Shown piece by piece: positions 39,463 through 41,718 of a DNA stretch of 64,000 nt. The notes below the pieces were generated by a model that saw only the letters and a program-made list of their open reading frames with translations, did not search any database and was not told where the DNA came from. How positions within the stretch are numbered: the first letter of the stretch is position 1; every line of letters starts with the position of its first letter. This DNA is from Serinibacter salmoneus (GTDB taxonomy: Bacteria; Actinomycetota; Actinomycetes; Actinomycetales; Beutenbergiaceae). Where the stretch lies: the NCBI RefSeq assembly GCF_002563925.1, contig NZ_PDJD01000001.1, forward strand, positions 1,432,973 through 1,496,972, written 5' to 3'. The position numbers and the translations under genes were made by a program.

Positions 39463-40116
39463 TCAGTCGTCGGAACCGACCTGGTTGATGACCGCGTCGG
39501 CGACCTCGCGCATGGTCAGACGCTTGTCCATGGAGGTCTTCTGGATCCACCGGAAGGCCTCGGGCTCGCTCAAGCCCATCCGTGTCATCAGCAGGCCCTT
39601 GGCGCGGTCCACGCGCTTGCGGGTCTCGAAGCGGTCCGCGAGGTCCGCGACCTCGTCCTCCAGGGCCAGGATCTCGGAGTGACGGTGCAGGGCGATCTCG
39701 ATCGCCGGGAGCAGGTCCGCCTGGGTGAACGGCTTCACCACGTAGGCCATCGCGCCGGCATCCCGCGCCCGCTCCACCAACTCGGTCTGGGAGAACGCCG
39801 TGAGCAGCACCACGGGCGCGATCCGGTCGCGCCCGATCTGCTCCGCCGCGCTGATGCCGTCCAGGACGGGCATCTTGACGTCCATCACCACGAGGTCCGG
39901 CTTCAGTTCGGTCGCGAGCTTCACCGCGCTCTCGCCGTCACCCGCCTCGCCCACGACGTCGAACCCGGCATCGGCGAGCGTCTCCACGACGTCCATCCGG
40001 ATCAGGGCCTCGTCCTCGGCGACCACCACGCGGCGGCCCTTGCCGATGCCGACGTTCTCGGCGCTGCTCTCGTCCTTCGCGTCCTTCTCGGACGGATTCT
40101 TCGATTCCGTGCTCAC
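39463..40116 (-). CDS. pdtaR: ANTAR-domain response regulator, PdtaR type
   Basis: Receiver plus RNA-binding antiterminator. The 217-residue product has an N-terminal acidic arm, a receiver (about 28-145) with VAEDEALIRMD, phosphoacceptor Asp79 in LVVMDVKMP, Thr106 and Lys128 in VVKPF, and an ANTAR domain (about 150-210) with RKRVDRAKGLLMTRMGLSEP. ANTAR domains bind paired hexaloop hairpins in nascent RNA. The usual partner kinase PdtaS is not in the window. The GTG start lies 6 nt after a TAGGCT box and has no ribosome site, so the message is probably leaderless. Confidence 0.94.
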   Translation of the reverse strand: MSTESKNPSEKDAKDESSAENVGIGKGRRVVVAEDEALIRMDVVETLADAGFDVVGEAGDGESAVKLATELKPDLVVMDVKMPVLDGISAAEQIGRDRIAPVVLLTAFSQTELVERARDAGAMAYVVKPFTQADLLPAIEIALHRHSEILALEDEVADLADRFETRKRVDRAKGLLMTRMGLSEPEAFRWIQKTSMDKRLTMREVADAVINQVGSDD

Positions 40117-40140: not shown

Positions 40141-40214
40141 GCCCCGGTAGCCCAACTGGCAGAGGCAGTCGGCTCAAACCCGGCACAGTGAGGGTTCGAA
40201 TCCCTCCCGGGGCA
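40141..40214 (+). tRNA. tRNA with Leu anticodon CAA, short variable arm
   Basis: A full cloverleaf can be drawn: acceptor stem GCCCCGG/CCGGGGC, D-arm with GG in the loop, anticodon stem GTCGG/CCGGC (one G-U) around loop CTCAAAC, variable segment ACAGT, T-arm GAGGG-TTCGAAT-CCCTC and discriminator A. The anticodon CAA reads the Leu codon UUG, and A14 and A73 fit leucine identity. However bacterial tRNA-Leu is normally class II with a long variable arm, which is absent. CCA is not encoded. It may be an atypical tRNA or have a different charging identity. Confidence 0.85.
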
Positions 40215-40220
40215 CAACGA

Positions 40221-40256
40221 GAAGCGGCCGGTACCCGATCGGGTACCGGCCGCTTC
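40221..40256. terminator. Two-way terminator between the tRNA and pyk
   Basis: Perfect 36-nt palindrome with a 16-bp stem (40221-40236 with 40241-40256) and GATC in the loop, between the plus-strand tRNA and the end of the minus-strand pyk. Confidence 0.9.
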
Positions 40257-40269
40257 GTCAGTCCTGGTC

Positions 40270-41718
40270 TCAGCCCGCGGGCGCCGGGGTCGGCTGGTGA
40301 CGATCGGTGTCGTCACCGATCGTGTGCACCTGCACGAGGTTCGTGGTGCCGGCGCGGCCGACAGGTGCACCGGAGACCACCACGACGCGGTCGCCCGGGA
40401 CGGCGAGGTCGCGGCCCTGCAGGGACCGGTCGACCTCGGCCACCATCGCGTCGGTGTGCGGCACGGTGGGCGTCACGATGCTCTGCACGCCCCAACTGAG
40501 GGCGAGACGACGGCGCGTGCGCGGGTCGGGTGTGAAGGCGATCAGCGGGAGCTCGGAGCGCAGGCGCGACATCCGGCGAGCCGAGTCACCCGACTGGGTG
40601 AAGGTCACGAGGTACTTGGCGGCGAGGGTCTTGCCGATCTCGTTCGCCGCCGCCGTGATGACGCCACCGCGGGTGTGCGGCGTCCATGCGAAGGAGGCGA
40701 TGCGCTCCATGCCGTGCTTCTCGGTGGCCTCGATGATCTTCGCCATCGTGCGCACGCACTCGATCGGGAAGTCGCCCACGGAGGTCTCGCCGGAGAGCAT
40801 GACCGCATCCGCGCCGTCGAGCACCGCATTGGCGCAGTCGGAGGTCTCCGCGCGCGTGGGGCGCGGGGAGTGGATCATGGACTCCAGCACCTGGGTGGCC
40901 ACGATCACCGGCTTGGCGTTGCGGCGCGCCAGCGCGATGGCCTCCTTCTGCACGAGCGGCACCCGCTCGAGCGGCAACTCCACGCCCAGGTCGCCGCGGG
41001 CGACCATGATGCCGTCGAACGCATCGACGATCTCGGCGAGGTTCTCCACGGCCTGCGGCTTCTCGACCTTGGCGATCACGGGGGCCTTGTAGCCCTCCTC
41101 GGCCATGATCGCGGCGACGTCGTCGTAGTCCTTCGCCGAACGCACGAAGGACAGCGCGATGAAGTCCGCCTTGAGGCCGAGCGCCCAGCGCAGGTCCGAG
41201 ACGTCCTTCTCGCTCATCGCCGGCACGGAGACCGCGACGCCCGGCAGGTTGATGCCCTTGTTGTTCGAGACCGGGCCGGGGACCTCGACCGTGGTCACCA
41301 CGTCGGTCTCGGTGACCTCGGTGACACGCACCGAGACCTTCCCGTCGTCGATCAGGAGGACGTCCCCGGGTGTGCAGTCACCCGGAAGTCCCTTGTAGGT
41401 GGTGCCGACGATCTCCTTGGTGCCGGGCACGTCGCGGACCGTGATGGTGAAGGTGTCACCCACAGCGAGCTCGTGACCGCCCTCGACGAACCGCTCCAGG
41501 CGGATCTTCGGGCCCTGCAGGTCCACGAGGATCGCGACGGCGCGGCCGGCGCGCTCGGCGGCGTCCCGGACCCGCTCGATCACCTCGGCGTGCTCCTGGG
41601 AGGAACCGTGGCTGCGGTTGATGCGGGCGACATCCATGCCGGCGTCGACCAGCTCCTGGATCTTCTCGGTGGACGCGGTCGCCGGACCGAGGGTGCAGAC
41701 AATCTTTGCTCTACGCAT
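40270..41718 (-). CDS. pyk: Pyruvate kinase
   Basis: Last step of glycolysis: phosphoenolpyruvate plus ADP to pyruvate plus ATP. The 482-residue product has RRAKIVCTLGPATAS at the start, the substrate Arg in VARINRSHGSS, the metal site IMVARGDLGVELPLE near residue 240 and the RAETSDCANAVLDGADAVMLSGET signature region shortly after. The C-domain holds the probable effector site. The ATG at 41718 gives the family start; the ribosome site is weak. It follows gltD by 91 nt. Confidence 0.97.
   Translation of the reverse strand: MRRAKIVCTLGPATASTEKIQELVDAGMDVARINRSHGSSQEHAEVIERVRDAAERAGRAVAILVDLQGPKIRLERFVEGGHELAVGDTFTITVRDVPGTKEIVGTTYKGLPGDCTPGDVLLIDDGKVSVRVTEVTETDVVTTVEVPGPVSNNKGINLPGVAVSVPAMSEKDVSDLRWALGLKADFIALSFVRSAKDYDDVAAIMAEEGYKAPVIAKVEKPQAVENLAEIVDAFDGIMVARGDLGVELPLERVPLVQKEAIALARRNAKPVIVATQVLESMIHSPRPTRAETSDCANAVLDGADAVMLSGETSVGDFPIECVRTMAKIIEATEKHGMERIASFAWTPHTRGGVITAAANEIGKTLAAKYLVTFTQSGDSARRMSRLRSELPLIAFTPDPRTRRRLALSWGVQSIVTPTVPHTDAMVAEVDRSLQGRDLAVPGDRVVVVSGAPVGRAGTTNLVQVHTIGDDTDRHQPTPAPAG

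Follow-up and report, generated by a model that had tools for sequence, protein, structure and literature searches.

Can a bacterial tRNA with a leucine anticodon and a class I fold be a working tRNA-Leu? The question is raised by a gene at 40141-40214 of the window, the 64,000-nucleotide stretch of the Serinibacter salmoneus chromosome analysed here. The long variable arm of tRNA-Leu is called universal outside animal mitochondria in passages of a 2023 review (PMC9976931). The original prediction left three readings side by side: a lineage that uses a short tRNA-Leu, a tRNA with another charging identity, or one with a non-translational role. In all likelihood the gene specifies a translational, short-armed tRNA-Leu that reads UUG and is charged by the single leucyl-tRNA synthetase (LeuRS) of the genome, the arm being dispensable and changing together with the D-arm core.

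The tRNA gene and its neighbourhood

The features of the locus are as follows.

40141..40214, plus strand: class I tRNA-Leu(CAA) gene, acceptor stem through A73 (ARAGORN, Rfam RF00005, own-genome search, sequence)
40148..40167, plus strand: positions 8-26 including the D-arm, TAGCCCAACTGGCAGAGGCA
40175..40177, plus strand: anticodon CAA, which reads UUG (ARAGORN)
40185..40189, plus strand: variable loop ACAGT, 5 nt (sequence)
40214..40214, plus strand: discriminator A73 (RF00005 match, sequence)
39463..40116, minus strand: pdtaR ORF, ANTAR response regulator, divergent neighbour (homologue PDB 1s8n; conserved beside the tRNA slot)
40219..40259, no strand assigned: strong inverted repeat between the tRNA and the convergent pyk (fold -37.3 kcal/mol)
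40270..41718, minus strand: pyk (pyruvate kinase), convergent neighbour (homologue PDB 5wrp)

ARAGORN calls tRNA-Leu(CAA) at 40141-40215, and the RF00005 match over 40141-40214 is full length, with 54.7 bits and an E-value of 5.1e-9, exceeding the gathering score of 29. The minimum-energy fold is itself a cloverleaf (-33.1 kcal/mol; strict cloverleaf -32.0). The acceptor stem GCCCCGG/CCGGGGC is followed by A73, and the gene does not encode the 3' CCA. The D-arm has a 3-bp stem, A14, A15, G18G19, A20a and an unpaired C13/A22, a layout common to class II tRNA-Leu; the anticodon arm is GTCGGCTCAAACCCGGC and the T-arm GAGGGTTCGAATCCCTC. The cloverleaf, CAA, A14 and A73 thus stand as first read, but "unbroken" was slightly generous because C13-A22 is open and leaves a D-stem of three pairs, a gap also found in all three class II tRNA-Leu of the genome. 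The variable segment is indeed 5 nt, as against 13, 15 and 17 nt in those class II molecules. The class II long arm is therefore absent, and the possibility that one had been overlooked is ruled out by the agreement of the covariance match, the cloverleaf and the minimum-energy fold.

The divergent pdtaR ORF lies close by, with 24 nt between its end and the tRNA gene. On the other side, the pyk ORF extends to 41952, with homology beginning at residue 79. The intervening inverted repeat, which lacks a T run and is absent from the terminator scan's list, is perhaps a two-way terminator; simple scans listed neither a sigma-70-like promoter nor a terminator for the tRNA gene.

Class I readers of the UUR codons

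The genome is complete in one contig of 3,268,715 bases. RF00005 finds 45 tRNAs in it and ARAGORN reads 45 distinct ones, a set that excludes one further match, in L007, which could not be typed. Among the 45 the leucine set comprises class II UAG, CAG and GAG and class I CAA (40141-40214) and UAA, the latter located elsewhere:

G000:C1:2257598-2257671 (in L002 1500-1575 = G000:C1:2257597-2257672): class I tRNA-Leu(UAA) (own-genome search)

Listing all tRNA-Leu genes was the check proposed for a class II CAA copy, and none emerged: no class II CAA or UAA tRNA-Leu occurs among the 45, and the genome gives 0 matches to the class II UUR pattern. Hence UUG and UUA have class I readers only, and the CAA and UAA tRNAs are the sole UUR readers found. 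The two are 85-86% identical. The UAA gene sits between what we take, from the translations, to be an NDH-2 gene and an IS3-type element or transposase; of 108 matches for class I UAA, 30 show the NDH-2 linkage again.

Leucine identity and the meaning of UUG

With the anticodon and variable loop left out, the CAA tRNA is 86% identical to the class I Leu(UAA), 67% to Tyr, Met and Arg alike, and 61-65% to class II Leu, and is thus not clearly nearest to any other isotype. Its D-arm alone is 74% identical to class II Leu and equally to Lys, Asn and Cys. A midpoint-rooted tree joins class I and class II Leu with a support of 0.73, with 80 of its 120 rows being Leu. Nearest-neighbour identity leaves the isotype undecided; it is decided by features compared position by position across the 45 tRNAs. 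The combination of A73, A14, A15-U48, A20a and an open 13-22 occurs in exactly five of the 45, which are the five Leu tRNAs, and the rest carry at most three of the five features. The CAA tRNA possesses every bacterial Leu element tested (A73, A14, the A15-U48 Levitt pair, G18G19 and A20a) and is probably a tRNA-Leu by descent.

Passages of the review PMC9976931 give the leucylation elements of E. coli as A73, A15-U48, G18G19, A20a and D/T-loop contacts, state that the sequence and folding of the long arm are uncorrelated with leucylation, and report that variants without the long arm and the anticodon arm are still active; its table also counts the large variable region as a bacterial Leu element. 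Bacterial LeuRS would on this account recognise A73 and the elbow (A15-U48, G18G19, A20a, D/T-loop contacts) and not the variable arm. With the enzyme reading the discriminator and the elbow, the long arm could go without loss of charging. The genome has a single LeuRS (976-aa ORF), by which we infer the CAA tRNA to be charged; the one enzyme would then serve both the short-armed UUR readers and the three long-armed CUN readers.

The window uses 82 UUG and 1 UUA among 1828 Leu codons in 43 genes, which were called crudely by codon bias and of which some are surely wrong frames. UUG positions were compared with the nearest solved homologue in gltB, trpB, polA, uvrA, dop, yvcK, pyk and pdtaR: 17 of 25 align with Leu, six with I, V, M or F and two with other residues (A, D), the doubtful pairing at polA 486 being entered as not Leu and the gltB UUG positions 5 and 1456-1489, which lie outside the alignment, being uncounted. 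A second gltB homologue has V, L, M, R and L at the five UUG positions. Judged from such alignments UUG is a leucine codon in this genome, and they give no support to its reassignment.

Distribution of short-armed tRNA-Leu

The evidence supports the suggestion of a short tRNA-Leu in this lineage, and the short form proves far more widespread than was guessed, across Actinomycetota and phages. A DNA search of 59 genomes, the window's own and its relatives, gave matches in 54; the 30 loci read, which come from the stronger matches and include the window's, all hold class I CAA or UAA. Across 296 genomes of the phylum a strict class I pattern matched 54 and a class II UUR pattern 222, each an undercount of its class because both patterns fix D-stem letters. 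An open pattern, which constrains neither the length of the arm nor the choice between G and C at base 23, matched 63 of 79 genomes in a class-level sample. Patterns run backward as controls matched 1 of 296 (strict class I), 1 of 296 (class II UUR) and 2 of 79 (open pattern). Once two of the 80 open-pattern matches, which have no anticodon stem, are dropped as false, short-armed UUR tRNA-Leu occurs in 47 of the 79 genomes, and in four both UUR readers were seen and are short.

A scan of named genomes returned at least 118 stretches, at least 112 of them with a called tRNA; six of 118 had no tRNA at the pattern. The matches listed are mostly from Actinomycetota and include Mycobacterium, Mycolicibacterium, Nocardia, Gordonia, Rhodococcus, Corynebacterium, Streptomyces, Nocardioides, Bifidobacterium, Amycolatopsis, Pseudonocardia, Microbacterium, Arthrobacter and other genera. 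A few of the matches listed lie outside the phylum, in a planctomycete, a Rokubacterium, a deltaproteobacterium and an acidobacterium, and in tRNA arrays of an elusimicrobium, a chloroflexacean and cyanobacteria. These last, among the matches listed, place class I tRNA-Leu(UUR) in dense arrays of 12 to 27 tRNAs per locus (L152, L184, L206, L213, L245).

Phage records yielded 52 matches for the CAA tRNA and 30 for the UAA tRNA, from phages of Mycobacterium, Streptomyces, Corynebacterium, Gordonia, Enterococcus, Prochlorococcus, Myxococcus and other hosts. Six phage stretches were read, and in four, from Prochlorococcus, Myxococcus, Enterococcus and Corynebacterium phages, the same D-stem core accompanies a short loop. 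Mycobacterium phage Bonray (L302 401-474) encodes a class I tRNA-Leu whose anticodon, GAG, reads CUN codons and whose core is near-identical, with U10-A25, so that the short form is not confined to UUR. A Pseudomonas phage match has anticodon TAG and a different D-arm.

Conservation and the link between D-arm core and variable arm

Among 144 distinct class I Leu tRNAs A73 is present in 144, and among the 143 with a parsed D-arm (that of L198 was not parsed) A14 and A20a are each present in 143, with pair 15-48 being A-U in 136, covarying G-C in six and A-C in one; because AGAGGC and portions of the anticodon and T loops were preset in the search pattern, these counts are valid only for the free positions (73, 14, 15, 48 and most stem pairs). 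The stems vary with compensation, except 53-61, which is always G-C; 137 of the variable loops have 5 nt and the other seven have 6 nt. The constancy of A73 and the compensated variation in nearly all stem pairs show that this is no chance fold.

Arm length is tightly linked to the D-arm core. In the 79-genome sample all 51 tRNAs with G23 are short-armed and all 27 with C23 long-armed, without mixtures; counted as distinct sequences, 44 are G23/short and 22 C23/long (Fisher P 5e-18). Class I molecules have C12 and C13 in all 143 parsed cases, class II molecules G12 and G or A13. Loss of the arm would thus go with a change of the 12-23 pair from G-C to C-G, of base 13 to C and of base 9 mostly to A, a change that probably repacks the tRNA core for a 5-nt loop. 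The link is looser beyond the 79 genomes, in that CAA tRNAs of a Pseudomonas phage and a mycobacteriophage have short loops on other D-arms. One short-armed case, a UUR tRNA-Leu at G354:C44:28574-28615, combines the class I core with a variable loop of intermediate length, 8 nt.

Both classes at the pdtaR slot

The original prediction had found added interest in the tight link to pdtaR. The link is real and old: 53 of 71 pattern matches for class I CAA have pdtaR within 3 kb, in a set in which the window's locus is entered twice and three stretches have no called tRNA. It is nevertheless uninformative on the short arm, as class II tRNA-Leu occupies the same slot in other genomes. Comparison of this locus across actinobacteria, which had been proposed as a check, finds either class I or class II CAA beside pdtaR. 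Among 30 class II UUR loci, a class II CAA gene is accompanied by both pdtaR and pyk in L131 and L133-L135 and by pyk in L132, and pdtaR relatives at 46-55% are found in L121, L107 and L125; a 29% match in L112 was not counted.

The two classes meet within the window's own family. Of its 24 genomes, 16 (all but the genus g6) have class I CAA adjoining pdtaR and 0 matches to the class II pattern. The eight genomes of g6 have class II CAA, with pdtaR (80-88% identical) adjoining in seven loci and the eighth locus ending at a contig edge. The first six acceptor bases of the window tRNA, GCCCCG, are common to all eight g6 class II genes, and its 17-nt anticodon arm is identical in six of them and one base off in the other two. 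Their 20-nt D-arm stretch equals that of the window genome's tRNA-Leu(CAG) in four and of its tRNA-Leu(GAG) in four. Because this stretch is common, the match is only a hint, one that might fit recombination among tRNA-Leu genes; class exchange could have come about by such recombination.

On a tree of 66 PdtaR proteins, which leaves out L265 since it lacks pdtaR, the class label needs five changes, at least two of them forced by starred branches; shuffled labels average 12.9. With an uncertain root and a number of uncertain long branches, the change counts do not distinguish gain of the arm from its loss. On the same tree L141, titled Sphaerisporangium cinnabarinum ATCC 31213, groups with Cellulosimicrobium, and the record name may not fit. 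It seems fairly likely that at this one orthologous slot beside pdtaR the tRNA-Leu(CAA) of actinobacteria has changed class, between I and II, more than once, core and loop changing together and LeuRS identity staying constant, and that whole lineages, the window's included, read UUR through class I alone. If true, this would overturn the rule that tRNA-Leu is long-armed everywhere but in animal mitochondria. The short-armed tRNA-Leu form a large natural set that includes, among the matches listed, the well-studied Streptomyces, Mycobacterium, Corynebacterium and Bifidobacterium, and in the window's lineage at the least no long-armed reader of UUR was found. With natural long/short pairs at one locus the function of the long arm becomes testable, and the set is also relevant to tRNA annotation, to genetic-code tools relying on tRNA class and to the way SerRS and LeuRS discriminate their tRNAs.

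Alternative explanations

If the gene specified the class I tRNA of some other amino acid in mutated form, with UUG misread or reassigned, this would account for an overall sequence that resembles Tyr, Met and Arg (67%) at least as much as class II Leu (at best 65%), and a human class I tRNA-Leu-CAA is, according to passages of PMC8450103, really a changed tRNA-Met. Such an identity is very improbable here, given that the class I UAA sister is the only other possible UUG reader found, that UUG positions align mostly with Leu (17/25), that the full five-feature Leu set is confined to Leu tRNAs (5/45) and that A73 is kept in 144/144 relatives. The suggested other charging identity is accordingly not borne out: UUG is Leu, and all tested Leu elements are present.

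The suggested non-translational role fares no better. A regulatory tRNA-like RNA, perhaps acting with the RNA-binding PdtaR, would explain the old and tight linkage (53/71 class I CAA matches within 3 kb), but an ordinary class II tRNA-Leu(CAA) fills the same slot elsewhere, which also disfavours any PdtaR-linked RNA; the UAA sister lies elsewhere, adjoining an NDH-2 gene, and without the CAA and UAA tRNAs there would be no UUR reader among the 45. We regard this reading as highly improbable. That the gene is a decaying or redundant copy, with a class II CAA gene present but missed, is barely credible: the 86%-identical UAA sister could indeed read UUG by wobble, but the genome is complete in one contig, the other class II tRNAs scored clearly above the RF00005 cut-off, the class II UUR pattern is absent here yet matches in 222/296 phylum genomes, and class I CAA is kept in 16/16 family genomes without the class II pattern. 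A translational tRNA-Leu with a short arm is the reading we retain.

Relation to described tRNA-Leu forms

Full-text searches, with few subscription papers in their scope, turned up no description of class I tRNA-Leu in actinobacteria, and an earlier one is possible. None appears in passages of PMC7609411, PMC8450103, PMC9437257, PMC4932002, PMC12772374, PMC6297222, PMC8629427, PMC9569102 and PMC2474678, and the relevant terms are absent from PMC10531406 and PMC5359403. Several Tyr, Leu and Ser tRNAs are said to have short arms in passages of PMC2474678, which leave the organisms unnamed. In public records the short form is already annotated as tRNA-Leu, for example in phages.

With bacterial class II tRNA-Leu, as in E. 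coli or the Streptomyces bldA tRNA-Leu(UAA), the window tRNA shares A73, A14, A15-U48, G18G19, A20a, the 3-bp D-stem with open 13-22, Leu codons and, in some genomes, the same slot; it differs in lacking the long arm, in 12-23 being C-G rather than G-C, in C13 instead of G or A and in having mostly A9. Animal mitochondrial tRNA-Leu(UUR) is likewise a short-armed UUR reader, recognised via A73 and A14 according to passages of PMC9976931. It is organellar, with a partly unfolded anticodon branch, unlike the stable GC-rich cloverleaf found here on bacterial chromosomes, and the two short-armed forms are presumably independent. Human tRNA-Leu-CAA-5-1 is also class I with a CAA anticodon but scores as a tRNA-Met with a changed anticodon in passages of PMC8450103, whereas the window gene is old and keeps the Leu identity set. 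The nearest printed description is that of tRNA-Leu(TAG) in the Mycobacterium mucogenicum clade, a bacterial tRNA whose short variable loop is noted in passages of PMC6582537; there it belongs to a tRNA cluster and supplements a normal gene with a long arm, whereas the genome analysed here yielded no long-armed copy for the codon.
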